Below are positions 26,391 through 63,869 of a stretch of 64,000 bases of DNA, in pieces. Every line of letters starts with the position of its first letter. Position 1 is the first letter of the stretch. Source of the stretch: Ochotona curzoniae (Eukaryota; Chordata; Mammalia; Lagomorpha; Ochotonidae). The stretch is from assembly GCF_017591425.1 (NCBI RefSeq), contig NW_024465751.1, positions 8,866,001 to 8,930,000 of the forward strand. Reading direction: 5' to 3'. A program made the position numbers and the translations under genes. Below the pieces are notes generated by a model that worked only from the letters and a program-made list of their open reading frames with translations, had not been told where the DNA came from and did no database searches.

Positions 26391-26403
26391 GCTCAGCCAT
26401 TTT
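26391..26403. repeat. Target-site duplication, left copy (L1)
   Basis: GCTCAGCCATTTT directly before the T-run of the L1 tail; it matches 33180-33192 without mismatch. Confidence 0.93.
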
Positions 26404-26856
26404 TTTTTTCTTTTTTTTTTATTGTTGCTTACACTGTATTGTGTAGTACAGTTTTATAGGCGCTGGGGATTCCCCCCACCCCTCCCCATACCCCTCCCCC
26501 CATGGTGGATTCCTCCACCTTGCTGCATAACCATAGTTCAAGTTCAGTTGAGATTCATTGCTTGCAAACACATGCCTAGCATAAAGTTCAGCGTCTTATT
26601 GTCCAGATAAGTTCAGTGGCCTCCTGGGGAGACCTTCTATGGTCTGAAGATAGGTCTAACAGAGTAAAGATCCGGTCGGTTAAAAGCCCCAACAAGGCCT
26701 CAGTATCAATATACAACATTATGGAATTAATTGACATAGTATTGGGTAAACAATATGTTAAAAATAATGCAAGTTCCATTCTTCGAAACATCTGGGTTGA
26801 GACAGCATCAATGACACGTTCAAAAAATAACAAACAACCAAACAATAAATTACAGG
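26404..26856 (-). other. L1 3'UTR, G-rich tract, AATAAA and A-tail
   Basis: About 450 bases follow the ORF2 stop. The minus strand has a G-rich polypurine tract (26470-26505), then a block related to the 3' ends of the other L1-derived copies here (26449-26474), then AATAAA (26418-26423) merging into an A-tail with a single G interruption. A G-rich tract before the poly(A) signal is typical of mammalian L1 3'UTRs. Confidence 0.9.
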
Positions 26857-29800
26857 TTAAATCAAGGCGAACATGTGGTATCTAATCTTTTGGGATTCAC
26901 TCATTTCCCTTAGCATTATAGTTTCCAGTTGTGCCCATTTAGCCACAAAGAACTGCATTTTGTTTTTTTTAACAGCTGAGTAGTATTCCATGGAGTAGAT
27001 GAACCAAAGCTTTCTTATCCAATCTTCTATTGATGGGCATTTCGGTTGCTTCCATGTTTTTGCAATTACTGATTGTGCTGCAATGAACATGGGGATGCAT
27101 GTTGGTTTGTCGTAAAACAGGTGTTTTGGATATATTCCTAGGAGTGCTATTGCTGGGTCATATGGCATGCAGATTCCGAGTTGTTTGAGTGTTCTCCAGA
27201 CTGATTTCCATAAAGGCTGTACCAATTTGCAGCTCCACCAGCAGTGGAGTAGGGTTCCCTTTTCCCCGCATCCTCGCCAGCAAGCGTCGTTGGTGTTCTT
27301 GTTTATGTGGGCCAATCTTACTGGTGTTAGGTGGTACCTCATCGATGTTTTAATTTGGATTTCCCTTATTGCTAGGGAGCTGGAACATTTTTTCATATGT
27401 TTGTTTGCCATTTGGACTTGCTCCTTTGTGAAATGTTTGCCCATTTCCCTTGCCCATTTCTTGAGTGGCTTGTTTGTTTTGGTTTTTTGGTTGTTTTGAA
27501 GTTCTTTGTATATCCTGGAAATTAGCCCCCTATCGCCTATATCGTGTGCAAAGATCTTCTCCCACTCTGTGGGTTGCTTTTTTACTTTGTTGATTGTTTC
27601 CCTTGCTGTACAGAAGCTTCTTAGTTTGATGAGGTCCCATTTGTTTATTCTGTTCTCAACTGCTATTGCTTTTGGTGTCCTTCTTAGAAAGTCGGAACCT
27701 ACTCCTAGGTCTTGCAGTGTATTTCCTACATTTTCTTGCAAGAGTTTGAAGGTTTCTGGATGTAGGTTTAGGTCTTTTATCCATGTAGATTGGATCTTAG
27801 TGTATGGTGATAGATGTGGGTCTATCCTTTTGTTTCTACAGGCTATCAGCCAGTTGTCCCAACAACATTTACTAAAGAGGCCTTCCCACTTGCTTGAGCT
27901 ATCATTGGTCTTTTTGTCAAAGATTAATTGGCTGTATTTGTGTGGGTTCCCTTTTGGTGCTTCTATTCTATTCCATTGATCTTCTTTTCTGTCTTTGTGC
28001 CAGTACCAGGCTGTTTTGATAACCACTGCTCTATAGTATGTCCAGAGGTCCGGGATTGTGATTCCCCCTGCTAATCTCTTATTTTTCAGGATGGTTCTAG
28101 CTATTCGTGGTTTTTTGTGTTTCCAGATGAACTTTTGAATCATTGTATCCAGTTCCGTGAAGAATGTTTTGGGCAATTTGACTGGAATTGCGTTGAAAAT
28201 GTATATTGCTTGTGGTAGTATAGACATTTTAATGATATTGATTTTGCCTATCCAGGAGCACGGGATGTTATTCCATCTTTTGAGGTCTTGTTCAATTTCC
28301 TTTTTAAATAGTTTGTAGTTTTCTTCGAATAGGTCTCCTACGCTTTTGGTTAGATTTATTCCCAAATACTTCATACTTCTCTCTGCTATTTTGAATGGTA
28401 TCCTGTTGGTTAGATCTTCTTCCATCTTGGTGTTATTTGCGTACACTATGGCTGTTGATTTTCGTTCGTTAATTTTGTACCCCGCCACTCTGCCAAACTC
28501 TCGTATAAGTTCTAGCAGTTTCTGTATTGATTCTCCTGGTTTTTCTATGTATAGGATTATGTCATCTGCATATAGTGAAAGCTTGACTTCTTCGTTTCCT
28601 ATACGTATGCCTTTGATTTCTTTTTCTTGTCTTATGGCCTCTGCAAGTACCTCTAGGACTATGTTGAATAGCAGTGGTGATAGCGGGCACCCTTGTCTTG
28701 TTCCAGATCTCAGTGGGAAGGGTTCTAGCTTTTCTCCATTCAGTATGATACTGGCGTTGGGTTTTTCATAAATTGCTTTAATTATGTTGTGGATTTTCCC
28801 ATCTATGCCTACTTTGGCTAGAGTTTTTAGCATGAAGAGGTGTTGGATTTTGTCGAAAGCTTTTTCTGCATCTATTGAAACTATTATGTGGTTCTTGTTT
28901 TGCAGTTTTTGGATATGGTTTATAACATTTATGGATTTCCGAATGTTGAACCATCCCTGCATTCCAGGGATGAATCCTACTTGATCCGGATGAATGATCT
29001 GTCTGATGATTTTTTGAATTCTATTGGCTAGGATTTTGTTGAGAATTTTAGCATCAATGTTCATCAGAGAGATAGGTCTGTAGTTTTCCTTCTCTGATGG
29101 TTCTCTGTCCGGTTTTGGGATTAAGGTGATGTTGGCTTCATAGAATGAGTTTGGGAGGGTTGCTTCCTCCTCTATTGTTTTGAAGAGCTTGTAGAGGATT
29201 GGGGTTAGTTCTGTTCGGAATGTTTTGTAGAATTCTGTAGTGAAGCCGTCTGGGCCTGGGCTTTTTTTCGTTGGGAGATCCTTGATGACTGTTTCAATCT
29301 CTACCTCGGTTATGGGTTTATTTAATTCTGCAGTTGCCTCCGGACTGAGTTTTGGTAAGTGGTGGGAGTCCAGGAACTTTTCTATTTCTTGGTGGTCCTC
29401 AAATTTGTGGGAGTACAGTTCTTTGTAGTAATTTCTAATTATTTTCTTAATGATTGCAGTGTCTGTTGTTATGTTGCCTTTTTCATCTTTAATGCTATTG
29501 ATTCTCACTTTCTCTTGTTTTTTTTTGGTCAATCGGGCCAGTGGAGTGTCTATTTTGTTTATTTTCTCAAAAAACCAACTTTTTGATTTGTTGATTTTAT
29601 GTATAGTTTTTTTGATTTCTATTTGGTTTATCTCCTCCCTTGTTTTGATGATTTCTTGTTTCCTATTGTGCGTGGGACTCTTCTGCTGCTGTTTTTCCAG
29701 ATCCTGGAGGTGTGTGGTTAGTTCCTGTATTTGGCGTCTTTCTTGGGCCTTGACATGCGCTCCGATTGCAATGAATCTACCTCTTAGCACTGCTTTGGCG

Positions 29801-30669
29801 GTGTCCCACAAGTTTTGGAATGTTGTATCAGAGTTTTCGTTGGTTTCCATGAATTTTTTGATCTCATCTTTAATTTCTTCTCTGACCCATTGTTCGTTTA
29901 ATAGCATATTGTTCAATTTCCAAGAGTGCCTATACTTCCTGGGGAGTTTTGAGTTGTTGATTTCCAGTTTCATCCCATGGTGGTCTGAGAGGGTACATGG
30001 TATGATACTAATGTTTTGGAAGTTGTTTAGATTCGCTTTATGTCCTATCATGTGATCGATTCTGGAGAAGGTGCCATGCACCGCTGAGAAGAATGTATAG
30101 TCTGTGGCCTTAGGATAAAAAGTTCTATATATGTCTACTAAGTCTAGTTGTTCTATTGTTTGTGTGAGCTCTGTTGTTTCTTTGTTGAGTTTTTGTTTCG
30201 TGGACCGGTCCATTGTTGTTAGAGGTGTGTTGAGATCGCCTACAAGAATTGTGCGGGTGTCTATGTCTTCCTTTAAGTCTGTAAGTAATTGCTTTACGTA
30301 ACTAGGTGCATTAAGATTCGGTGCATAAACATTAATGATGGTGATTGCTTCTTGATGGATCATTCCTTTCACCAGTATAAAATGGCCTTCCCTGTCTCTT
30401 TTGATATTAGTTAGAATGAAATCTATTTCATCTGAAATTAGGATAGCTACCCCAGCTTTTTTTTCTCGTCTATTGGCGTGAAATATCTTTTTCCATCCCT
30501 TCACTTTCAGTTTCTTTGCATCCTTTCTGGTTAGATGCGTTTCTTGTAGGCAACAGATGGTTGGGTCTTGTTTGATGATCCATTCTATTAATCTCTGTCT
30601 TTTGATTGGTGAATTTAGACCATTTGTGTTGAGAGTTAAAATTGAGAGTTTGCAATTTTGCCCTGCCAT
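26857..30669 (-). CDS. L1 ORF2 protein: endonuclease and reverse transcriptase
   Basis: 1270 aa from the first ATG (30667-30669); the frame stays open upstream to a TTG at 30699 but no earlier ATG is seen there. It nicks target DNA and reverse-transcribes L1 RNA at the nick. Residues 1-239 form the APE-like endonuclease with N14, E43, D145, N147 (GDLN), D205 (SRIDH) and H230 (SDHH). Residues about 460-730 form the reverse transcriptase: [26 protein letters not shown] with D600, [14 protein letters not shown], and YADD with D702/D703. The C-terminal CCHC motif has C1130, C1134, H1142 and C1147. As I remember human ORF2p (1275 aa), these numbers match it exactly, so no net indel separates the domains. 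No internal stop or frameshift is present. It is probably translated from the bicistronic L1 RNA at low level after ORF1, as known for L1. Confidence 0.97.
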
Positions 30670-30724
30670 GTGATTGTGTTGTGTGTGTGTTGTTGCCAAT
30701 GTAGTTGTCTTGTTTGTGCAGCTT

Positions 30725-31687
30725 TTAGTTTGGAGACCTTCTTATTTGCCAGCTTTGTTTGTGATTTGCCTCCTTTTTGTCCGGGACTAGTGCATTTCTA
30801 AGGAGACTTTGCAGAGCTGGTTTTGTGTAGACATATTCTTCTAGTTTTTCTTTGCTATTGAAGTATCTGATTTCGTTCTCATATACAAATGAGATCTTTG
30901 CTGGGTAGATTATTTTTGGTTGACAGTTGTTTTGTTTCAGGACTTGGAAGATCTTTGTCCATTCTCTCCTTGCTTGTAGGGTCTCTTCGGAGAAGTCAGC
31001 AGTGATTCTGATGGGTTTTCCCCTGTATGTGATCTTTTCTCTACTTCGTGCTTGTCTCAGGATTCCTTCTTTGTCTTCATTGGAGTAGAACCTGAGCACC
31101 GTGTGTCTGGGTGAGGATCTCTTTGGATCATGTCTGTTGGGAGTTCTCTGTCCATCCTGTATGCGGGGTGGATTCGTGTTCCAAGTGTTTTGGAAGTTTT
31201 CCTGTATAATTTCATCAAGCACTGCTTGCATCCCAGATTCTCTTTCTACTCCCTCAGGGAGGCCGATGATCCGAATATTCAGTTTTCTAAGGTAATCCTT
31301 CATCTCTTGCATCATTTTATTAGTTTTGCTGAGGTTTGTCTCCAGCTGTTTAATTCGCTGGGCACTTTCATTTTGTGTGTCTTCTGTTTCAGAGATCCTT
31401 TCCTCTGCCGCATTTATTCTGTTGATGAGGCTTTCAATCTTATTCTCTTGGGCATCCAGTTTGGTTTTGATTTGTTGTATTTCGGTGATTATGCGGTTCT
31501 GGTAGTCTTCCAGCTTTGTGTCCACGTCTCTGAGAAATTTTAGCATTATTTTCATCAATTCCTTTGCTGGTAACACGTCCATGTCTTCATCTCGCATCGC
31601 CGATATTGATAATGGCTTTTGGCCCATGTTTGGTGGGGTGCTGGCTCTTTCATCTGGAGCACAGCTCTTTCTGGTGGTTTTTCCCAT
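30725..31687 (-). CDS. L1 ORF1 protein: trimeric RNA-binding chaperone
   Basis: 320 aa from an ATG at 31685-31687 to a TAA. ORF1p coats L1 RNA to form the retrotransposition particle in the cytoplasm. Residues 1-40 look disordered; about 41-131 are a long heptad-rich coiled coil (the trimer stalk). About 135-215 match the RRM-like domain ([11 protein letters not shown], then ENFQNTW, then RHTVLRF). The C-terminal domain carries [20 protein letters not shown] and REW (residues 221-243) and YPAKISF (261-267). Human ORF1p is 338 aa, so this is slightly short, with a shorter N-terminus. The ATG is the first in frame and sits at the end of the 5'UTR. The frame is intact. ORF2 lies in a different frame 55 nt downstream. 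Confidence 0.96.
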
Positions 31688-32410
31688 TGCGTTGGTGTAT
31701 TCTGGTGGGGCAAATGAACCCGTGTGTTGAGGGGCTGTCAGGTGCTTTCCTGTAGAGATTGGAGCCTGCAGGCGTGGTGTTGCCGGGCGTGGTAATTTTC
31801 AAGGCACCGTTGGTGCGTTCTCAGGGCCCGGGGCTGAAGAGCACCACCTTGGGGGCCCAGTGGATTCCAGGCACACTCTGGGCACCTCTTCAACAGGTGT
31901 GACACCCCAGGGCGTGGAGGGATGGAGGCGCTCTCTGGGTGTGCCCCCTGCACGGGAATCCACAGGACTTAGAAGGTTTTATGTGCTTTCTCCCTGCGTT
32001 CTCCGTGTCAGGGACTGCAAGGTTTTTCAGAGCCCACCTGGTGCGTCTCCCACACACGGGACTGTGGGTGAGGCACTTTCCAGGCGTGGCTCTTGTGCAG
32101 TGAATCCACCACTCGTGGTGTGTGGGTGTTCAGAGCCCCTGCTCCTGTGTGGCTCTCTCACACCGGCCCTTAGCGGGGGAGTGGCCCAGGCGCCCTGTTA
32201 TTATTTCACGGCAGGTTCGCACCGTGTCAGTGTGATGCAGGAGTTTTCAGAGCTCTCCTGGTGGGTCGCCCACGCTCAGAACTGCGGGGTGGGAGGCGAG
32301 GGGTGAGCAGTTCACCCTATGGGAGTGGTACCTGCGTGTCGGGGACACACAGCGCTACACTTCCCAAGTTTCAAAGCTCCCCTGACATCTGACACCTGCG
32401 CTGTGGAGGC

Positions 32411-32538
32411 GGCTGCTGCAGGCGGGGCCGCCTAGTCCGCTCGGCTGCTGCAGGCGGGGCCGCCTAATCCGCTCGGCTGCTGCAGGCGGGGCCGCCTAAT
32501 CCGCTCGGCTGCTGCAGGCGGGGCCGCCTAGTCCGCTC
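32411..32538 (-). repeat. Four-copy 32-bp tandem array in the L1 5'UTR
   Basis: Four head-to-tail 32-bp units (32411-32442, 32443-32474, 32475-32506, 32507-32538). The only difference I see is one base: outer units read CCTAGTCC, inner units CCTAATCC. Each unit holds a GC-box-like GGCGGGGCC and a CTGCTGCAG. The near identity means recent expansion or homogenisation. Its position suggests repeated transcription-factor sites, which is inference. Confidence 0.95.
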
Positions 32539-33148
32539 GGCGCAGCGACCAGGGTCTTCCCGATGTTATCGCGCTTCCACCAGGCAGGATGTGGAGGACT
32601 CCAGATCCTCACCAGCAGCCTCTGCGCACTGAGACGCACTGGCCCTCTCAGTGTAGGAACATCCGAGGCGCCTTCCTGGTGCCCCCTCAGCCACCAACAC
32701 CACTGTGCGTAGTTCCCAAGGCATAAACCCGACAGCTTCAGTCTCTCTGCCCCGCGTTCTCAGAGGCTGGACCCTCAGTAGGGGGTCAAGGAATGCGGAG
32801 GCTACCACGTCAACCCCCCGGCTCACCAAACGTCCGGCCGCTGCAGTCTGCCTCCGCCTCCCGCCGGCGACGGTCCGCCCGATCTCCCCGCCTCCGGGCT
32901 GTCCGCGTCTCCCGTCAGGCCGCTTTCAAAAGTGACTCAGCAGGTCTGGAGTGGGATGTCGGTTTCTCTACCTTTGCCCTGCTCCGTTCTCGCTGTTCTT
33001 CCGAGTTGTGTGGATCTTTTTGGCTCCACACTGTCCCAGGGAGCCTCACGGACCTCTCCCTGCGATTCCCTGCTGTTCCACTTTGCTGCTTCTGTAACTT
33101 TCTATCCCTCTTTCACTGGACGCTCTCTCACAGCCTTCCTCCTACGTC

Positions 33149-33157
33149 GGCCATCTT
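33149..33157 (-). promoter_or_regulatory. YY1-like site at the L1 5' end
   Basis: On the minus strand the motif reads AAGATGGCC about 22 bases into the element. Human L1 has a functional YY1 site (AAGATGGCCG) at the same place, where it sets the transcription start. Here the motif and its position are seen; the role is inferred from the human element. Confidence 0.65.
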
Positions 33158-33179
33158 CTCTCGAAACTCTATTTTGATC

Positions 33180-53099: not shown

Positions 53100-53396
53100 T
53101 TTAAAAATTTTTTTACTTCTTCTCCTTGTTCTTGTTATTATTATCACTTTATGTTACAGTTCTGTAGGCCCTGGGTTTTCCATTATCCCATCCCCAATTC
53201 CCTCCCCCACCCTATATCATTACTAAAGTGTAGTTCTTCATACACAGTCATATGTCCATCATTGTGGGCATGGACAATGGCAGAGAGTCCAGCGTCCTAA
53301 TGTCAAGATATATGTAAACAGTTTCTTTGGGAGTCCATCTTTAATCTGGAAGTAGAGATGGATACATATTGCATTGTATCCTCACATCTGGATATG

Positions 53397-53644
53397 TGAG
53401 TCTCCATTACACAGTTACTAAACATCCCCTTAAATGAAAAGCCACAATACAAAATCAACAATAGGAAGAAAAATAAAAACTTATAATGCCATAAACTTAA
53501 ATAACATGTTACTAGGTATGAGAGTCTCTATTACACAGTTACTATACATCACCTTAAATTGAAAGCCACAAAACAAAATCAACAACACGAAGAAAAAAGA
53601 AATTAACAACACCATAAAGTTAAATAACATGCTACTGAATGACT
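53397..53644 (-). repeat. Two-unit 124-bp tandem duplication in the half-L1 3'UTR (copy A)
   Basis: Landmarks recur at a spacing of 124: 'ttacacagttact' follows 53405 and 53529, and 'gccacaa' starts at 53441 and 53565. The units differ at scattered positions. The same arrangement (spacing about 123) is found in copy B, so the duplication belongs to the family. Confidence 0.85.
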
Positions 53645-53779
53645 GATGTGTCGCTGCAGAAATGAAAAAGAAAATCAAATCAAGAACCTTCTTGAAGATG
53701 ATGCTATTGCATGATCTATGAGTCACTGAAGAATTTAATCAAAAGAGAGTGTTTGAAGAGGTGAAACTAATAAAAACAT

Positions 53780-53930
53780 CAAAATCCATGAGATGCAATT
53801 TCTGCTCATCTTTGTTGGTGAAATGTGTCTCCTGTAGGCAACAAATAGATTGGTTTTGTTTTTTGAATCCAGTTTGCTAATGTACAATGCTTGATGTATG
53901 AGTTTAAGCTATTTGCATTCAGAATTAATA
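53780..53930 (-). pseudogene. ORF2 5' remnant ending at the shared deletion point (copy A)
   Basis: The minus strand encodes a stretch like [19 protein letters not shown], matching the endonuclease start of L1 ORF2 around E43 ([13 protein letters not shown] in the intact copy). Upstream sequence to about 53930 also aligns by eye to the intact ORF2 start. Downstream it leaves ORF2 homology near 53785 and enters the 3'UTR. Only E43 of the catalytic set is inside this fragment, so it cannot encode an enzyme. Confidence 0.78.
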
Positions 53931-54015
53931 TAAATAGGTGGTAATTGGTCCTGTCATTTTAGCAATGGGTTGTTCATTGATTTAGTCTTCTGTTGTTACT
54001 TCACTGGGATGTTCT

Positions 54016-54981
54016 TCACATTTGCCTTTGGTTTTGGTGGGTGCTATTCCTCTTCTCTGTTAAAAGAAGTATCATTTGTAGGGCAGGTTTGGAAGAAGTG
54101 TATTCTTTTAACTTTTCTTTACTGTGAAAGAATTTTGTTTCATTTTCAAAGACACAGGAAAGCTTTGCTGGGTGTGTTATTCTGGGCCTACATTTTTTTT
54201 TTTCTTTTAGAATCTGGAATATGTCACTCCATTCTCTTCTGGCCTGTAGAGTTTCCTGTGAGAGGTCTCCTATGAGTTTAATTGTCATTCCTCTATAGGT
54301 CAAATGATTTTTTCCCGTGCACATTTAAGGATCATTTCCTTATGTTTGATTGAAGAGAGCTTGATGATCATGTGTAATGGTGAAGATCATTTTGGTCAAC
54401 TCTGTTGGGAGTTCTGTGCCCCTCTTGGATGTTGTTTCCCAATTGTTTCTCCAGATTAGGGAAATTTTCTCTTATTATTTGAACTTATTGAATACATTTG
54501 TAAACCCAGTTTATCTTTCTGCACCAGAAGTACAACTCTCATAACTCTTATATTTGGCCTTTTAATAGCGTCTTTCAATTCTTGAATACTTTTTTTGGCC
54601 TGATCCAGCTCTGTTTCCAGCTTTTTGTTTGTTTTCCCCTAGTGACAAGAAATATTTTCTAATTTCAAGATTCTTTCTTCTGCTTGTTTCATTCTATTTT
54701 GGAGACTCCACTGTACTTTTAATTTGCTCCATTGTATTCTTCATGTCTGATATATCAGCTTTCATTTGATTCATTTCCAATGTGACATATTTCTTAAATT
54801 TCTTTACGTGCTTCTCATTGTTGATAAGAAGCTTCATAACAAGTGTTTTGAATTCTGTATCCCCCATTTTCTCAATGTCTTCTTCAATGAATTCTGAAAT
54901 TGGCAAAGGGTTTTGTTCCTTTGCAGAGGAGTCTTCAGTAATACTCATTGTACCTCTGTCTCTTCTTTTGCTGTTGGTCAT
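54016..54981 (-). pseudogene. Decayed L1-type ORF1 of half-L1 copy A
   Basis: Two open pieces flank a frame-broken middle. The N-terminal piece (54694-54981, 95 aa) starts at an ATG (MTNSKRRDRG) and holds the start of a coiled coil before a TAG stop. The C-terminal piece (54016-54324, 102 aa) has the ORF1 C-terminal domain: YRGMTIKLIGDLSQETLQAR followed by REW, and HPAKLSC where ORF1 proteins have YPAKLSF. Between them (54325-54693) homology continues, including the ENFPNLEKQ region on the minus strand, but with frameshifts and stops. Sequence differs clearly from the intact ORF1 at 30.7-31.7 kb, so this is an older lineage. Confidence 0.82.
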
Positions 54982-54984
54982 TGT

Positions 54985-57330
54985 ACTTCTTGCTATCAGA
55001 TTCTTTTACTTGGGGCAGGTTTCTAAGCTGTGTCACCCACAGTTCTACAGTTCGATTTTATTTATTGCAGTTGGTACACGGCTCTTTGTTTGCAGTCACT
55101 TGTGCCACCCCTCTAGCGAGTTCCAGGTTCCAGGTCTGGTTCTTATGTTAGATTTCCTTGATGGTTTCTGTAGCCCCAGATACTGGCTTGCCAGTCTCCA
55201 CCTCCTGTGCTACTGTGCTGAGGTTGCACAGTTGTCTATACAACCTTTCTCCCACTTCCAGTTGGAGTACATCCCAGGTATATTGGGAGACACCAGGTAT
55301 CCTATATAGCTAGGTTGTTGGTGGTGGTAATTTTGCAGGAACCTGTTGTCTGTTAGGTCTGAGGGCCACACAGAGCTATTTTCATCTGTACAATGCCATA
55401 GTCAGTGGTCCTTCCCCACTCTAGCTCACCTGAGGCCCACATGTGTTGTAGCTGTGCCTGGTCTAGTCTGCCCCCATCCCAACTCATGCTCTCCAGTGAG
55501 ATTGGTTGTCCAGCAGGGGAGCCCACATTCCTCTGCCTGCTTTGCCTCCTCCCCCCTGGTTCTCACGTTTGCTGTTTGGGTGCTACAACTATACCTGGTA
55601 CGCCTCACCTCACCTTGGCATTCCTTCATGTGCACTAGTATGTGTTGTGACTGAAACTGGCCTGACCCACACTCTATGCTGGCGTTTGGATTCACCAGCG
55701 GTTGATGTGAATGGGTTCAGCCTGGTCTGCCCCCCACCTATGCCATATATATGATGGTGGGTATCTTCCTCTGGCCTGGTCTGGGTTGCTCTGTATCGTG
55801 GTTCTTGAGCTCACCTGTAGGGGCTGTGGTCCAACAGAAGAGCTTCCCAGGTTCCTCATTCAGAACCTCTCCCTATGCCAGGTCTTGCGCATACTGGTGG
55901 TTCCATGGGCCAGCCCTCCTTGTTGGCCTTCAATCCATTCCAGTTCTTGGTGTTGGCTGTTTCACCCCAGCAAAGGCTCGTCTATACCCAGACACTGCTC
56001 ATACATGGCTCAGTAGGGGCAGAGACCCAGCCTAGTCCGTCCTACATCTACCCAGTTTCTCCAGAGCACCAGATGGTGAAGGCATCTAGCCCAGCTTGGT
56101 GCACCCAGCCCCAGCCCACAATTGTGCCTAGGGAGATTGCAGCCATATTCAGACCAGAACGCAGCCCCTCACTCCAGTCCCCAGACCCTCCCATGGGAAT
56201 CCCAACCTAGAAAGGGTGCACAATCACAGCTCCCCAACTGAGTCTATTCCCAGTCCTAGATTGTGCGCATACCCGTGGGTGCTCTGACCCAGTTGGCTTA
56301 GCCCCTCTCCTGTCTCAACCTTTGCCTTTGATGCTGTGGCATAGTATCCCTGCCTCATGCAGACCAGTTGGTGTAAGAGCCTAGATCGGAATGACATGTG
56401 CTTCATTCTGATTTCTGTTCTTTTTTGTGAGTTGTAAGTTTGTTTGGCCCTGCCCAGTCCGCCCCCTTTTAGTTGCAGCTCAACCCACCTGACATCCTAT
56501 TTTCGGATGCACCTTTGGGTGGTGCTGCCTTGATCTGCCCAGATTGCCATCAGTTCCTTTACCCATAAGTGATGGCAGGTGCCATGGTCACTCCTAGCTT
56601 AGCCAATCACCACCCCAGCTTGTGAGCTAACCTGTGGGATTTGTATTTCCACAGGGTTGGGCCCACAATTCCCCCACAGAGTTTACCCCTGGACCAAGTT
56701 CTCTTGCATGATGGTTAGTGTCTTGACCCTGCTGAATGTGACCAGTCCACTATTCCACCATCCAGTCAAGTAATGGTACCTAGCCCTGCCAAACAGGCCC
56801 CCATCCATAGCTTTGGTGTGGACTGGTGTGTGGCAGTCAGTAATGCTCTATGCTAACAGCCCATCTCAGGATTCCTAATTTGGCTGGTGAATCAGTCTTG
56901 CCAAAATAGATCTTATGGACATTCCCCTCCAAAACATCAGGGCACAGTCCCCACACTTGCCCAAAAGTTTCATAACCCTGTTTCTGTGAATCACCCAGAA
57001 TTCATCTCTCACCTACACTAAAGCTGGCCTTATTCATGGGCATCCCTAAGCAGCAATTTCATATTTTAAAAACCCCAGAGCTTGCCATTGGGCAGCCAGC
57101 AGGTGGGGCCTGGCACCATTTGATGCACTGGCTGCCCAAAGCCAAGGACTCAGTCACTGCCTTTCGGCAGTGGCTTTGTCCTGAGACCCCAGCCTTGGAT
57201 TCGGCCCGGCAGGGGCACCCCCCCACAGCCACCACACTGTGGAGAGCTGCAAGCCGCCCCCAATCCCAAGGCCCGGACCCCTCCCAGACTCATCCTGCAG
57301 CATGGTTTTGGTGGCAGGGCAGTGGCTCCT
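54985..57330 (-). promoter_or_regulatory. Probable 5'UTR of half-L1 copy A with degenerate monomers
   Basis: About 2.3 kb of GC-rich DNA upstream of the ORF1 ATG. It has no recognisable protein, but a loose motif like 'gcctggtctgccccca' recurs on the + strand near 55458, 55717, 55776, 56028, 56090, 56285, 56440, 56527 and 56785. This suggests decayed tandem monomers such as some L1 5'UTRs carry. Open frames of about 80-110 aa here are Pro/Ser/Leu-rich and look incidental. The outer limit is a guess from base composition, and part of the region could be older flanking DNA. Confidence 0.55.
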
Positions 57331-57860
57331 AGTTTTCAAAGACCATTTTGGTTGATATGTGAAGTACAACAGTAAAGCAGCACTTAGGAGGGGATTTCAG
57401 TGGCTCAGGTAGCATATGATGCTGGTTTGAACCAAGTAGGTAGTGTTGGAAATGGGAAGAGGGAGGTGTCAGGCTAAATTTTCAAAGTTGAACAAAGAAA
57501 AATGGTTGGCAGCTTAGAAGCCGTGTTGTAGTAGTACAGTATGTGAGGGTAGAAATGCTGAATTCTTTTCAGCTCTTAATCTTGGGTTTACTGAATGCTC
57601 CAAACAGAAAATATCCCAATTACAAAAATTTCCACTTGGAAAATCATGCAAATGTGATTGTGTGCCTGCAGCACTGTAAGTATTGCCCTCTGGATCTATA
57701 GGCACTTTCTGATTCAACACAATCCTCTGAGAGAAAGTAAATATGGGTTTTTCTTTTTTGGCAGAAAAATGTCCAACTTCTAAGTCCAAGACAAGATTCC
57801 CTTCATCTCACCCCAGAAACTGTCTTTTGGTGATGGTGGGCCCATAAGTAATCACATTTC

Positions 57861-58123
57861 ATTTTTATTTATTTATTTTTTTATTTTATGTTACAACTCC
57901 ATAGGCTCTGAGATTTCCCTTATCCCTTCCCCAAACTTCCCTCTCCTCACACTGATTTCCCCCATATTTCAGCAATAGTATAATCCTTCATAAGCAGTCA
58001 TAATTGCATCATTCTGCTATGTAAGTGTATCCTGACTTTGTAGGTATGGACAAGGGCGGACAGTCCAGCACCCTATTGTGAAGATGTATTTAACAGTTTC
58101 ATTGGGAGTCCATCTTTAGTAGC
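57861..58123 (-). mobile_element. 5'-truncated L1/half-L1 3'UTR copy
   Basis: 263 bases on the minus strand matching the last part of the half-L1 3'UTR (compare 53120-53340): T-run on +, the shared 26-bp block (57893-57918), C-rich tract, then 'agtccagc' and 'gggagtccatcttta'. It is flanked by CACATTTC at 57853-57860 and 58124-58131, a plausible 8-bp target duplication. Confidence 0.82.
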
Positions 58124-58924
58124 CACATTTCTATCTTAATGGCAACCAAACCATGGTGTCTAGAAGATAATGCTGCAGATCTCTGTTCAAAGAAAGGTTC
58201 CACTAGGCAAGGACTTGCTTTGCTGCTTGGTCCTTTTTCCCTCAGTGTTCCAGAACTCCCGCAAAGCTAACAGCAGCAGGATTTGATTAGCACAACTCTA
58301 GCGCATATACATTAAGCCTCAGGGACTATATTAAGCTGACAGTGCTCATCAGCACAGTGAATTTAGCTATCCAAAGCTGGCCAATGGCAGGCAAGTCTGG
58401 GTACCAATTACAGTTTGCCTTCCAGGCTCCCTTTGCTATTATGTGAATTTCGATACAGCTGTAGCAATAGTAAGGGAATAAAAAAAAATTGAACCATTTC
58501 AACAAATAAGGCTTAACTTCCTAAGTTAAGACAGGAAAAACAAAGATGGTTAGCTGACAATACTCATAACAGGCAGTGCGACAAATGCTGATTTTTGTTC
58601 TTCAATGAATATTTTTAAAATGTTCCTTTCTTCACAACTTCTCAGCATGGCATTCACTTCATGGGAGGTTTTTGGAATATTGATGTATATTAATTAGCAA
58701 GCATAAAATCTACATCTGCCAGGAGCTGGCTCTGGGGCAAGGGAGGGAACAGAACAATGAATACTGTGGCAAGTGCTCTGGAATATCAGTTATTAATGGC
58801 CAGAATGGTAGTTGAGGTCTGAAGAAACTGGGTGTTTTATAGGGTGATGTGGTCAGATCTTGAGTAGTTGTTGTAAATGGGAGTCTCCAGAAATAGAGAA
58901 GGAGGCCAAGCATCTATGTGTAAC

Positions 58925-59080
58925 AAACATTGGCTTCAAGACCAAGTAGACTCAGTTTGGAATCTCCTACTTGTACCACTCAACCATGTCCTTGTTTTGG
59001 ACAAATTAGCCTGACCTCTCCAAGCTTGTTCCCCCCTCTGTGAGATGGAAGGCAATGTGTGCATCTAGGGTCTTTTTAAA
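58925..59080 (+). mobile_element. MIR fragment
   Basis: 'agtttggaatctcctacttg', 'gacaaattagcctgacctct', 'ctctgtgagatggaaggcaa' follow MIR on +. Confidence 0.6.
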
Positions 59081-60639
59081 GATCATGGTCAGGCACAGCC
59101 TCCAGCCTGGCCAACGACCGCAGCCCTGGTTGATATGCAGCGCTGAGGACTAGTATCCACAGAGCTGCACCTGAGCCTCTCCCTCCTTGTTGGCAACTCT
59201 GGGGTCAGCTGGAGGCAATCAGAATAAGGGGCAGACACCTGTTCACACTTCAGAAGAAAGGAGGCATGCCAAGCCACTGCCTGACACTGTGTCTGGAAAG
59301 GATTCTCTGAAAGTAAAGGCTGATTTCTGTCTTGTTTACTTGGTTTTGCTCTGCTGTTTTCTGTTGCCCTTTTGTCTGAGTAGATTTTTAAGAATTTTCT
59401 GCCAGTGTCTGGTCCCACCACATCTGGGCTATCACTCTGTTAGTTCTTGATCTTTCCAAGGGACAGAAGGGGATAGGGCATTCCTTCTCTGATTCGAAAA
59501 TGTTCTATCAGTGTTAGGAAGCTTCTGATGGATGATTTACCTGATTCAGTGACCTCTTCTGGGTATGGTAACCTTTGTCCCTGATCAGGGCACACTGATA
59601 TGGCAGAAAGCATGAGACTGAATTGAGTGGATTGTTAGATTAAGGAGCTTTGGCTTGTACTTCTTATTACTTCCTGCAGTTGAGGTCACAGCACACAGCG
59701 TTTCTGAGCAGGATGACCCTTAAGACAGTGTGGTTTCCTCCCCTCCAAGGAGGGTACTTGCAGGTAGATTCATGAGGAGTTTTTCTTCTCCTTGACCCTC
59801 ATTCCCCTGTACAGTGAGGATTGGCATCTTTCTCTATTTTGAGAAGAGAAATGTAAACAATTGATTGCAAAGTTGCCAGAGATGGCCCTCTGACTGGACA
59901 TCCAATCCTTTGTGCAGCTGGTATCTCCATCCTCCTGGTCTGAACCCTGGATGTATGTGGACAATGAGGTTGGACATCCTGATACATTTTGTGATGTGGA
60001 GACATTTTCTGTCACTGTGCATTTCCAGATGAAGATAGCCCTTAAGTCTCTGGTGCTTATCAGCAGTCAGCATAAATCAGTGGAACTTGTAAGAACTCTT
60101 GATTCAGCTGAGCATGTCCACCCATCCTGCCTTGATTCTGGAGGTTCACAGTACAAGATCTTGAAGCCTCATTGGTACAACCTCTTGTGATCACCTTTTT
60201 GCCTCCATGGTACCATGTAGTAAGAGACAGGGAGGCTGTGTATCTGTGTTTATCTCCATCTCTAGAATCTTGTGAAAAATAAGTGAGATGAAGCATATGA
60301 GGTATCTAATGATAGAATATATGCCCAGTTTCTGCAAGTGGTAGAAAATGTAGATTCTTCTCTCCTATAGTTTCTTTTCTCTTTCTGATAGAAGGCAATG
60401 GTATGTGGGGCCTTTACCAGATTTCTTAGGGAAAATAAGGATCTACTTGAATCCACTAGATAAATATACTTCTGTAATGTGATGGGTAATGGTTAATTAT
60501 CTAAGACACTGGGCCCATGAAAGATTCATTATACTACACATAAATAATGTGTAGAAAGAAACAATTTAGATTTTATGGGTTGATATCCAGGAGAATTAGG
60601 CTAAAGATTTGTATTGTGTGGACTAGTGGGTCCTTTAGA

Positions 60640-60930
60640 GACCATCTAATTTAGTCTCAGTAAAGTTGCAGGATGCTGAATCCCAAAGAGGCTGAGTAAC
60701 TACTCCAAGAGGTTGAACTGAGGTTGTGGTTTGAGTTCATGGGATTCTGTGTCTTTCCATTCCCTCATCTCTATTTCCTGTAGGTATGAATGCAGATGGT
60801 AGAGCACAACATAAAACACAGATCTTGGAAAGTCAGACTAGAATTTAATTTCTGATCCCAATTCCTACGCTTAGATATGATAAGTCACCATGTTCCATCT
60901 GAGAAAGATCCCTCAATTACAGTAAATTAG
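60640..60930. repeat. Two adjacent MIR-like relics
   Basis: 60640-60760 reads like a reverse MIR ('gctgagtaactactccaaga'); 60785-60930 like a forward one ('agatatgataagtcaccatg', 'ccatctgagaaag'). Both are diverged. Confidence 0.4.
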
Positions 60931-61505
60931 CAAACCCCACTTTCCAATGTGCAGGTTTTCGTTTGGAAAATGCTACTTCTACTGCAATAAGACAAATCAA
61001 GAAACAGTTTCTTTTACCTAATGGAGACAGATAGCACTATAGCTTCACAATTTTGCTTTACGATTATGTCAACCCTTTGGCTTGCAATAATGTGGTACAT
61101 AGGAGACTAGACTGCCTCCTCATTCCATGGGAGGCAAAGCTTATTTGTCATACTGGTGGCACTTGGAAGTCAGTCCAGAGAGCAGGAGAAGCAAGCATGC
61201 TTTTGTCTTGATTGGATGCGTGAGGGGGCCTTAAATTTTAGGAAAATTTCTGGATGCTGTCATTACAAATGGTATCTTTTAACAGGTTGTAAGTTGACCA
61301 AGTCTTAAGGTGCTATTTGATTGAATACTAAATTATTCTAGAGGCCCAGGAATAAGCCAAGAACTATGCTCTGCTGCACATGACTTCACAGTAAAACCTG
61401 GGGGCCTTGATGTATTTCTCTCTTTAGGGTTTAATGTAGTTTCGGAAGAGTCCCCTACTATTTAATAACATCAGTACCTCTACATTCTGCATTAATTGGA
61501 TTACA

Positions 61506-61517
61506 AGAGCTGAAATC
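61506..61517. repeat. Target-site duplication, left copy (half-L1 B)
   Basis: AGAGCTGAAATC, identical to 62891-62902, immediately left of the inverted segment. Confidence 0.88.
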
Positions 61518-61988
61518 CCATAACTCTTATATTTGGCTTTTTAATAGTGTCTCTTAATTCATGAATACTTTTTTTTTTTAGCTTGACCCAGCTCTGCTTC
61601 CAGCAGATTTTTGATTGTTCCCCAATTGTGGCAAGAAATATCTTCCAATTCTGAGGTCCTTTCTTCTGCCTCATTCATCCTAGAATTGAGATTTTCCACT
61701 GAAGTTTTAATTTGCTCTGTTGTGTCATTCATTTCCAATAGTTTGGCTTGATTTTGTTTCAGTATTGCTATTTCATATGTGATATAGTGCTTAAATTCCT
61801 GCATGTGCTTCTCATTGTTGATAAGAAGCTTTATAACAAGTGTTTTGAATTCTGTTTTCCCATTTCTTGATGTATTTCTCAGTTAATTTTGAGGTTGGCA
61901 GACTTTTGCTCCTTTGCAAGGAGCAATACAGCAAGTACAATATTCATTGTACCTCTGTCTTTTTTTTGTTGTTGGTCATTGTACTTCT
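61518..61988 (-). pseudogene. Inverted 5' half of ORF1 (copy B)
   Basis: On the minus strand this matches copy A from its ORF1 start region (54990 end) down to about 54539. It encodes coiled-coil-like sequence, with an open piece at 61559-61804 (81 aa) that includes NSRMNEAEERTSELEDIS. That is typical of the ORF1 stalk. The right edge shares the 10-mer TTGTACTTCT (61979-61988) with the start of the + segment, a microhomology at the inversion junction. Confidence 0.8.
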
Positions 61989-62232
61989 GGTGCAGAAGCT
62001 GGGTTTACAAATGTATTCAATGAAACAACAAAGGAAAATTTCCCTAATCTGGAGAAACAATTGGGAAACAACATCCAGGAGGGGCACAGATCTCCCAACA
62101 GGAGATCCTTAAATGTACTCGTGAAAAAACCAACTGGATTTAAAAAACAAAACCAATCTATTTGTTGCCTACAGGGGACACATTTCACCAAAAACGATCA
62201 GCAGAAATTGTATCTCATGTTTTGGCTTTAGT
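61979..62232 (+). pseudogene. ORF1 middle fused to ORF2 start (copy B)
   Basis: One open frame runs from ORF1 RRM-region residues (ENFPNLEKQLGNNIQEGHR) into the ORF2 start (NQSICCLQGTHFTKNDQQK) and stops just after the ORF2/3'UTR join. The fusion arises because the ORF1 C-terminus and inter-ORF region are missing. The glutamate of the endonuclease active site (QET in L1) is replaced by glycine (QGT). It is a relic, not a likely protein. Confidence 0.72.
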
Positions 62233-62890
62233 TTCATTTCTTTAGAACAGCTTTTTTTTTTTCCTTATTAAATTCTTCAGTGACTCATAGATCATGCAAT
62301 AGCATCATCTTCAAGAAGGTTCCTGATTTTTTTTTTTCATCTCTGCAGCGACACATCAGTCATTCAATAGTTTGTTATTTAACTTCATGGCATTGTAAAT
62401 TTCTTCTCTTTTCTTCCCGTTGATGTTTTTTTTGGTGGGTTTTCATTTAAGGGATATATAGTAACTGTGCAATGGAGATTATCATATCTAGTGCATGCTG
62501 TTTAACTTCATAACATAAATTTCTGGTTTTCTGCCTATTGTTGATTTTGTTTTGTGGATTTTCACTTAAGGGGATGTATAGGGTCTGTGTAGTGGAGACT
62601 GTCATGTCCAGATGTGAGGATACGATGCAGTGTGCATTTCTACTTCCGAATTGAGGATGGACATAGTGAAATTGTTAGATGTGTCATTACATTGGGATGC
62701 TGGATTCTCTGCCATTGTCTATGCCTGCAATGATGGACTTATGGCTGCTTATGTGGAGCTATGCTGTTGTAATGATATGAGGGAACTCAGTAGGGGAGAG
62801 ACTTGGGAAGGGGGTAGGGAAATCCCAGGGCCTATGGAACTGTCTCATAAAATGATAATAATAATAAAAAAAATCTTAAAAAATTAAAAG
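62233..62890 (+). other. 3'UTR and tail of half-L1 copy B
   Basis: Matches the 3'UTR of copy A along its length, including 'cagcgacacatcagtcattca'-type sequence, a tandem duplication with about 123-bp spacing ('tttaacttca' at 62378 and 62501), the G-rich tract (about 62793-62820), the shared 26-bp block (62818-62843) and an A-rich tail to 62890. Confidence 0.85.
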
Positions 62891-62902
62891 AGAGCTGAAA
62901 TC
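62891..62902. repeat. Target-site duplication, right copy (half-L1 B)
   Basis: AGAGCTGAAATC immediately after the A-rich tail; it matches 61506-61517. Confidence 0.88.
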
Positions 62903-63439
62903 AAAGCTGCTTAACATCAATCATTTAGAAGGTTTTTCTTTCTTGTAAATATCACTCCGATTTTCAAAACCTGTTAGATCACCAGATAACTTTAGGGAGC
63001 ACCATCAGTTATGTTACTTGTTGCTTCCAAAATCCACAGAATCTCACCAAGTTTATTTGTTCATCATGTTTAATTTTCTCAAGATTGCACACCCTGAAAA
63101 CAGTTTCAAAGCTGGGTTAATTTGGATGTAATGATTAGAAGCACAAATTTCCCGGAAGGCAGGCCAAGGTTGAAATTTAACACATTTCTACTTTCTGCAT
63201 GATGTACTATTACAATCATACAAATTATGGCTGTAGTCATGGTGTCCACAGGGCTGTGTTCCTCTGGAGGGTCTGTGAGAGTGTTTCCTTGCCATGTTGA
63301 ACTTCCACAGCCAGCCTACATTCTTTGGCTCCTGGCTGAGTCTCTATCTTCATAACCAGTGGTATCGTACTTGTCATCTATACCCTATGTGTCTCCCATT
63401 GTCTCCCTCTTCTGCTTCCTTTTCCACTATAATAAAGTA
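62903..63439. other. No gene recognised
   Basis: Unique-looking AT-rich sequence between half-L1 copy B and the last SINE. Confidence 0.45.
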
Positions 63440-63718
63440 TATTTATTTTTTTCATCTACTTGAAAGATGAGAGAGAGAGAGAACAAAAGCAAGAATGAGA
63501 GATGCCTTCCATCACTCATCAAATGCCTGCAGCAGTTAAGGCTGGGCCAGGCCAAAAACACATGACTGAAGCTCCATCAAGGACTCCTACATGAGTGACA
63601 AGGCCCAAAGCACTTGAACCAGAATGCTGGATTAGAAGTGGTTATCAGAACCAACACATCTATATGGAATGCAGGTGTCCCAGACAATATCTTTACATGC
63701 TGCACCCCAAGTCTCCCC
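63440..63718 (-). mobile_element. Lagomorph C-type SINE, diverged
   Basis: 'atttatttttttcatctact', GA-rich stretch, 'ggctgggccaggccaaaaac', 'caaagcacttgaacc', end 'catgctgcaccccaagtc'. Confidence 0.8.
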
Positions 63719-63869
63719 ACCACCACCCTTTCCATTTTTAAGGACTTTTGTGCTTATAAGGCTCCCACCAGGATTATCCAGGTTGATCTTCAATTTTAAG
63801 GTCAACTGATTAGTGAGAACTCTTGATTCCATGTGCAATCTTATTGCCCTGTTGGGTGGAAGCTGACAT

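Follow-up and report, generated by a model that had tools for sequence, protein, structure and literature searches.

The question raised by this locus is how two L1-derived copies came to leave ORF2 at exactly the same place, and whether an element already lacking ORF2 was the source of both. We have analysed the two copies, here called E1 (the longer one) and E2, within the window, i.e., the whole stretch of 64,000 nucleotides (Table 1). Overall, E1 and E2 are likely to be two copies of one half-L1-type (HAL1-like) non-autonomous retrotransposon which carries an inverted scrap of ORF2 and would have been inserted in trans.

Table 1 Positions of the two half-L1-type copies, their parts, and the full-length L1 in the window
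Feature	Positions	Strand	Remarks
E1, longer half-L1-type copy	53100..57330	minus	5' end approximate
E1 presumed 5'UTR	54982..57330	minus	GC ~50-55%; internal tandem monomers absent; assigned by position
E1 ORF1, ~320 codons	54016..54981	minus	interrupted by stops and frameshifts; dsRBD-like domain still recognisable at the C-terminus
E1 ORF2 stub, ~57 codons	53787..53957	minus	start of endonuclease domain; frameshifted; ATG at 53957
E1 join	53787/53786	minus	between 53787 and 53786; last common ORF2-side letters CTCATG
E1 inverted ORF2 block	53361..53786	plus (ORF2 coding, antisense to E1)	profile, shuffles, alignment
Unit beside join, codons ~250-285	~53637-53786	plus	weaker
Middle unit, codons ~235-273	~53513-53690	plus	firm
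Outer unit, codons ~224-256	~53361-53512	plus	weaker
E1 sense 3'UTR	53110..53355	minus	homologous to last ~250 bp of intact L1; then A-rich tail
E2	~61.5-62.9 kb; 61518..62880 between TSDs	plus overall	5' part inverted
E2 left target-site duplication (TSD)	61506..61517	plus	AGAGCTGAAATC
E2 inverted 5' part	61518..61988	minus	ORF1 start to mid ORF1; inversion of twin-priming type
E2 inversion-junction overlap, 10 bp	61979..61988	plus	TTGTACTTCT; common to both sides; read by eye
E2 middle of ORF1	61979..62131	plus	compared with E1, two gaps
E2 ORF2 stub up to join	62132..62219	plus	alignment, tblastn
E2 join	62219/62220	plus	alignment to E1
E2 inverted ORF2 block	~62220..62630	minus	aligns with the E1 block in the same arrangement
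E2 sense 3'UTR and A-rich tail	62631..62880	plus	start from alignment to E1; direct match to intact L1 from ~62689
E2 right TSD	62891..62902	plus	AGAGCTGAAATC
Full-length autonomous L1	26404..33179	minus	open ORF1 30725-31798; open ORF2 26857-30741

Both copies are built of sense ORF1 with ORF2 codons 1 to ~57, an antisense ORF2 fragment, and the sense end of the 3'UTR, and their 3' portions are colinear. From the stub to the 3' end they align over 784 columns at 79% identity, which is far beyond chance. At the join, the sense strand of either copy reads CAGAAATTG(C/T)ATCTCATG and then leaves ORF2, after codon ~57. Thus the common exit point given in the original prediction is borne out. The further claim that ORF1 runs into about 60 codons of ORF2 holds for E1 (~57 codons, frameshifted), but not for E2, in which the 5' half of ORF1 is inverted and two gaps are present. 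The jump from the stub straight to the 3'UTR has to be given up, since an inverted tandem fragment of ORF2 intervenes and the sense 3'UTR of E1 starts only at 53355. An origin of the join as a splice junction was rejected by inspection only: the intact L1 has CTG AAA GTG AAG nearby, and the copies show no donor-type exon end.

The intact L1 was used as the reference for the lost part of ORF2 and as a model of the helper. When its ORF2 was searched by tblastn (E <=0.01), the stub alone was found in E1 and E2, with no reverse transcriptase or other sense ORF2. Beyond the stub, ORF2 is present in the copies as one inverted fragment, ~codons 224-285, arranged in tandem units of ~124 bp, and this duplication is common to both. 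An ORF2 profile made of two sequences and scanned in the six frames of the whole window, with reporting to E = 1, matched the intact L1, E1 in antisense (E 1.6e-5, best domain 3e-5) and E2 in antisense (E 0.003, best domain 0.011), and nothing else. For each block, 0 of 1500 dinucleotide shuffles reached the real score (19.9 bits in E1 and 13.4 bits in E2; the top shuffle gave 12.6 in each). In addition, when ORF2 was cut into tiles of 100 amino acids, the best match in each copy was to codons 201-300, and among the matches listed the best 14 are all antisense. At the protein level only the middle unit is firm, with 19.6 bits in E1 and 11.6 bits in E2. Taken alone, the outer unit scores 8.5 bits in E1 and a non-significant 0.8 bits in E2, and the unit beside the join is weak as well (4.2 and 5.9 bits, respectively). 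The test at the DNA level is weaker than that at the protein level: the best match of the E2 block (41.1) lies above its shuffle maximum of 35.4, while that of the E1 block (35.4) does not exceed its maximum of 41.1 (n=200).

Judged by their sequences, E1 and E2 are separate insertions, because they face opposite directions, their similarity is confined to the element, and E2 has a TSD and a 5' inversion of its own. Actually, E2 consists of two pieces facing opposite ways within one TSD of 12 bp, and their breakpoints meet at E1 54534/54535. As a rough guide to chance, a stretch of at least 11 bp was common to 6 of 1975 random window pairs. Twin priming has been described to yield such a product, i.e., an inverted piece plus a 3' piece in sense, with internal sequence lost, all within a single TSD (PMC2837659), and this product is reported for 18.4% (165/897) of germline L1 polymorphisms (PMC12016303). 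E2 carries the hallmarks of an L1 insertion by target-primed reverse transcription, with twin priming. For E1, no common stretch of at least 8 bases was found in the flanks compared, and an A-rich tail is present. Segmental duplication of one locus, the objection which the original prediction had foreseen, might be suspected from two copies within 10 kb, with their joins ~8.4 kb apart. The joins, however, are in inverted orientation, BLAST of the flanks revealed no similarity between E1 and E2 beyond the element ends, and the TSD and 5' inversion belong to E2 itself, so that we regard such a duplication as having practically no chance of being right.

The identity between the two copies is uneven, being 89% in the segment 54625-53635 and 78% outside it (0/500 permutations), which does not agree with uniform decay from a single common source. 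Gene conversion may be the cause. Since the most similar segment spans the join, we can also consider that one copy acquired the join once it had been inserted and passed it to the other by conversion. However, the inverted tandem units lie outside this segment, as does the 3'UTR; the copies have both in common as well, at the background identity of ~78-82%. The common structure therefore predates any conversion, and we hold a transferred join to be very improbable. Overall, the join, the inverted block and the tandem duplication common to both copies, together with the marks of E2's own retrotransposition, show at the sequence level that a source with the rearranged structure was copied at least once. 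In this respect the original prediction, that an ORF2-less element had been copied, is supported, with the two copies in the window as the basis for speaking of a family. Probably, an already broken parent was copied by the machinery of another element.

ORF1 is decayed in both copies, and neither of them holds an intact one. In E1 it matches PF17490 (E 1e-19) and solved L1 ORF1p structures (down to 8.1e-23). E2 holds ORF1 as fragments only, with a weak match to PF02994 that stays below the cut-off (E 5.6e-4; 20.6 bits versus 22.4). The gaps of E2 relative to E1 (54334-54401 and 53875-54304) remove from ORF1 its C-terminal domain and from ORF2 its start; they lack GT-AG boundaries on inspection, and a splice origin was rejected for them. 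The differences between E1 and E2 at the three codon positions amount to 21/92, 17/93 and 23/94 in the E1 frame and to 18/81, 11/80 and 22/80 in the E2 frame, from which selection on ORF1 is not clearly apparent.

The intact L1 is homologous to E1 and E2 in ORF1, the start of ORF2 and the 3' end, but it is not their direct parent. Its ORF2 is complete, and it shares with E1 61% DNA identity over 994 columns and ~30% protein identity in ORF1. Its best match to the presumed 5'UTR of E1 is a stretch of 54 bp (E 0.066), and no convincing homologue of that 5'UTR was found within the window. As for other sequences, a 3'-end fragment at 57863-58120 is related (65-68%), and, being truncated before the join, it is uninformative on it. 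A match of the element profile at 9941-9656 (E 0.003) was dismissed as chance, with an alignment of low accuracy over the ORF1 part only and no join. ARAGORN found no tRNA genes in the window. The element patterns have no exact match in the viral or prokaryote contigs, as expected of collections without mammals; the ORF1 of the intact L1 has no match in the viral contigs, and its ORF2 gave 20 pattern matches in genome contigs, none of which is a relative.

How the source lost its ORF2 can be approached from the 3' end. The homology of the E1 3'UTR to the intact L1 is clear (local score 46.3 versus a maximum of 18.6 in 200 letter shuffles). The original prediction had proposed a deletion, and in its simplest form everything from codon ~57 to the end of ORF2 would have been removed from a master L1 whose 3'UTR already held the inverted tandem pieces. 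The parental 3'UTR is not seen here, as the intact L1 matches the last ~250 bp only, and the identity between E1 and E2 falls at ~53635, near a boundary between block units, which would suit a 3' part that is a module of its own. On the other hand, the ~450-bp 3'UTR of the intact L1 aligns with the sense part of the E1 3' region only, no inverted ORF2 block besides those of E1 and E2 is picked up by the profile within the window, and the block fills just the interval from the join to the 3'UTR homology, its end at ~53361 lying next to the start of the sense 3'UTR at 53355. A simple ORF2 deletion hence falls short of a full account, except if the inverted piece was already part of the parental 3'UTR, and we consider it unlikely.

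The HAL1s provide the closest comparison. As described, they derive from L1, keep ORF1 and have lost the ORF2 enzyme (PMC5753468, PMC3627910, PMC3183009, PMC5322556), just like E1 and E2. They encode ORF1p only and have several origins in mammals (PMC5753468), with names such as HAL1, HAL1B and HAL1M8 in human, HAL1-1C_Cja in marmoset, and HAL1-1H_Cpo and others in guinea pig (PMC5753468, PMC3627910, PMC3183009, PMC5322556); those of guinea pig are reported to have long maintained the coding capacity of ORF1. The HAL1 design assigned in the original prediction fits our copies, in which the L1 3' end is kept. L1 ORF1 is recognised from the PF17490 and ORF1p structure matches of E1, with fragments only in E2, and both copies are without the ORF2 reverse transcriptase. 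HAL1s are further described as having a poly(A) tail and TSDs and depending on full-length L1; here, an A-rich tail is seen in both copies and a TSD in E2. The difference, with HAL1s compared by description only, is that ORF2 is replaced in E1 and E2 by an inverted and tandemly duplicated ORF2 fragment. In the accessible parts of the literature searched, we have seen no half-L1 from rabbit or pika and none with inverted ORF2. The table in PMC3183009, in the portion available and for young families only (<1% diverged), contains marmoset and guinea pig HAL1s by name, with no such entry from rabbit or pika. The half-L1 kind is already known, and the inverted ORF2 scrap looks like a new twist.

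The inner part of the source resembles a 5'-inverted (twin-primed) L1 insertion, which has an antisense piece and a sense 3' piece with internal loss (PMC2837659, PMC12016303), and E2 as a whole is one of this type. Unlike in such insertions, the inverted piece of the source is internal, following sense ORF1 and the ORF2 stub, and was itself copied on. We tentatively favour, at somewhat less than even chances, a birth by nested insertion over a plain deletion, because the latter leaves the inversion unexplained. A 5'-truncated and 5'-inverted L1 would have inserted itself, in sense orientation, into the ORF2 of a full-length L1. Transcripts from the outer promoter would then have ended at the poly(A) site of the inner element, and the outcome would be an element with ORF1 only, marked at the join by an inverted scrap of ORF2. 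The RNA of this source would have started from an L1-type 5'UTR and encoded ORF1p; for its insertion, ORF2p of an autonomous L1 would have acted in trans, as has been published for HAL1s. It has been noted that 3'-truncated L1 RNAs bearing ORF1 might in principle be retrotransposed, with HAL1 named in this connection (PMC4859970). Counting against the nested birth, ~3.1-3.2 kb should have been lost between the inverted and sense pieces (by arithmetic from the intact L1), whereas in human 5' inversions the two cDNA ends lie within 20 bp of each other in 46% (132/287) of cases (PMC12016303). The half-L1 reading as a whole is weakened by there being two copies only, by the undetected TSD of E1, by a block which at the protein level is firm only in its middle unit and at the DNA level stays within the shuffles for E1, by the uneven identity, and by ORF1 differences that do not clearly point to selection. 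The order of sense, antisense and sense could also be expected from a single L1 rearranged in one step, as genomic DNA or cDNA, by two template switches or by an inversion with flanking deletions. As this should need more breakpoints than a 5'-inverted insertion with its poly(A) site, we rate it as slightly less probable still than the simple deletion.

The inverted ORF2 scrap is a physical trace of some founding event, and for one route, the nested insertion with early polyadenylation, it opens the way to a direct test in the genome of the host. It is conceivable, with more reserve than for the nested birth itself, that a lineage-specific half-L1 family was founded here in one step by a nested 5'-inverted L1 and its early poly(A) site, and not by deletion of ORF2. 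With much of its ORF1 gone, E2 would also be informative on whether mobilisation in trans requires ORF1p produced in cis, provided that its gaps are older than its insertion. If the nested route is true, no large deletion of ORF2 is required, and an ordinary L1 insertion would be able to turn an autonomous element into an ORF1-only parasite.

We have compared E1 and E2, two copies of a half-L1-type (HAL1-like) element, with each other and with the intact L1 of the window. In BLAST, the two copies share three main blocks, i.e., the 5' half of ORF1 (76% identity), its middle (86%), and the ORF2 stub with the 3' part (784 columns, 79%), with a 29-bp piece and tandem-unit matches in addition. The exit from ORF2 falls on identical letters in the two copies, following CAGAAATTG(C/T)ATCTCATG, as the original prediction of a common exit point had stated. 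When the intact ORF2 reading (Met at residue 25) was used as the tblastn query, residues 29–78 were matched in E1 and 57–83 in E2; the E1 remnant thus comes to about 57 ORF2 codons, in agreement with the length first proposed. Beyond both stubs, the only part of the window matched at E ≤ 0.01 was the intact L1 itself. E2 lacks two segments of E1, 54334–54401 and 53875–54304, and with them the C-terminal part of ORF1 and the start of ORF2; in E2, these two adjacent gaps lie ~29 bp apart at 62101–62132.

Coordinates of the L1-related and other repeat features
Feature	Position	Strand	Remark
Intact L1, full length	26404–33179	minus	open ORF1 and ORF2
E1	5' end at about 57.3 kb, 3' end at 53.1 kb	minus	
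E1 join (end of sense ORF2 stub)	53787/53786		
E1 inverted ORF2 block	~53361–53786		
E2	61518–62890	plus (sense strand)	
E2 join (end of sense ORF2 stub)	62219/62220		
E2 inverted ORF2 block	~62220–62630		
5'-truncated L1 3' end	57863–58120	minus	different subfamily
SINE	63425–63719		

The intact L1 is an autonomous element, probably young, that appears coding-competent; it has a perfect 13-bp target duplication (GCTCAGCCATTTT at 26391 and 33180) and an ORF2 alignable along its length to the solved human ORF2p. Its 5'UTR contains four 32-bp GC-rich units (32410–32541, 98% matches). Compared with E1, DNA identity is 61% over ORF1 and the ORF2 start, ORF1 protein identity is about 30%, and a 54-bp stretch at E 0.066 is the best match between the 5'UTRs. 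Its ORF2 is complete, and it is too divergent from E1 to count as the matching full-ORF2 copy that had been named as evidence against a copied ORF2-less source. Among other repeats, the SINE, a putative lagomorph C repeat, matches 14 further places in the window (E ≤ 0.001), and the window sequence looks mammalian.

The segment after the join, previously read as 3'UTR, matches the intact ORF2 in antisense orientation, in E1 as well as in E2; a 34-letter antisense protein stretch of E1 aligns with a 36-letter stretch of intact ORF2. A two-sequence profile, built from the ORF2 of the window and that of human, was scanned against all 64 kb in six frames. It detects the antisense block of E1 at E 1.6e-5 (best domain 3e-5) and that of E2 at 0.003 (0.011); apart from the intact L1, there is no further hit up to E = 1. 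In 1500 dinucleotide shuffles per block, the top score was 12.6 bits in either set, below the 19.9 bits (E1) and 13.4 bits (E2) of the real blocks. With 100-residue ORF2 tiles, codons 201–300 in antisense give the best match in each copy, and the best 14 matches listed are all antisense. On the other hand, in a DNA-only test the best match of the E1 block (35.4 bits) stays below the maximum of 200 shuffles (41.1), which counts against inverted ORF2, while the E2 block reaches 41.1 bits, above its own shuffle maximum of 35.4.

The E1 block is built of overlapping units (about 53388–53512 and 53513–53636, mutual identity 84.6%), with a third, a partial copy of codons ~250–285, adjoining the join; by alignment, E2 has the same arrangement. 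When the units are scored one by one, the middle one alone is firm (19.6 bits in E1, 11.6 in E2); those at the outer end (8.5 and 0.8) and adjoining the join (4.2 and 5.9) are weak, a further point against inverted ORF2. A sense match to the 3' end of the intact L1 starts at 53355 in E1, directly adjoining the end of the inverted block. The 5'-truncated L1 3' end is 65–68% identical to the E1 and E2 3' ends, and its match to E1 begins near the start of E1's sense 3'UTR. Judged from searches of the open-access literature, the inverted block is apparently the new part.

Over 1334 ungapped columns, E1 and E2 are 81.9% identical (K2P 0.211). This identity is uneven, being 89% in 54625–53635 versus 78% outside, and the likelihood gain of 13.9 is larger than in any of 500 permutations (maximum 11.1). 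Gene conversion between these oppositely oriented neighbours, or origin from sources in different subfamilies (a subfamily mosaic), could account for this. The identity step lies near a boundary between inverted units. Since the inverted tandem units (78–82% identity) and the 3'UTR fall in the low-identity part, the common structure has the same age as the remainder of the copies.

E1 and E2 are separate insertions. Copies of AGAGCTGAAATC flank E2, at 61506 and at 62891; among random window pairs, 6 of 1975 have at least 11 bases in common, which gives a rough idea of chance. Within E2, the 5' half of ORF1 faces opposite to the remainder; the breakpoints meet at E1 54534/54535, and the junction of the inversion has a 10-bp overlap (TTGTACTTCT). 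Such a product has been described for twin priming (PMC2837659, PMC12016303). E1 has no detectable target duplication, and the similarity of the copies stops at the elements without extending into the flanks. What we observe directly is the anatomy of the copies and, in E2, the marks of TPRT and of twin priming; the other steps we infer. As an L1 derivative with ORF1 but not ORF2, the element would be transcribed from an L1-type 5'UTR, in E1 presumably the 2.3-kb upstream region, and inserted by the ORF2p of an autonomous L1; HAL1s are understood in the literature to need ORF2p in trans (PMC3627910, PMC5322556).

As to the source, we tentatively propose that it may have been born when a 5'-truncated, 5'-inverted L1 inserted in sense into the ORF2 of another L1. 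The order of sense ORF1 and ORF2 stub, antisense ORF2 and sense 3' end would be expected from such nesting, and one ordinary insertion would suffice, with the outer ORF2 left undeleted; a deletion joining the stub to an already odd 3'UTR seems unlikely to us. Nesting would require transcripts ending at the inner poly(A) site, and possible retrotransposition of 3'-truncated, ORF1-bearing L1 RNAs has been proposed, with HAL1 named (PMC4859970). 5' inversions make up 18.4% of germline L1 polymorphisms (PMC12016303). The weak point is that ~3.1–3.2 kb, a large stretch, is absent between the inverted and sense pieces, while both ends lie within 20 bp in 46% (132/287) of inversions (PMC12016303). 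A rearrangement producing the whole order in one step is, in our view, slightly more doubtful than the deletion.

HAL1 elements are described as having ORF1p as their only product and several origins (PMC5753468); named families are tabulated for marmoset and guinea pig (PMC3183009), and guinea pig HAL1 is reported to have retained ORF1 coding capacity for about 29–44 Myr (PMC3627910). The present element agrees with HAL1 in both structural respects tested. Overall, the core of the original prediction, the common join, was right, one important detail was wrong in that inverted ORF2 rather than plain 3'UTR follows it, and the interpretation as a copied ORF2-less source of HAL1 design is partly supported. 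The element probably works like a HAL1. The kind of element is known, and the variant is apparently new.
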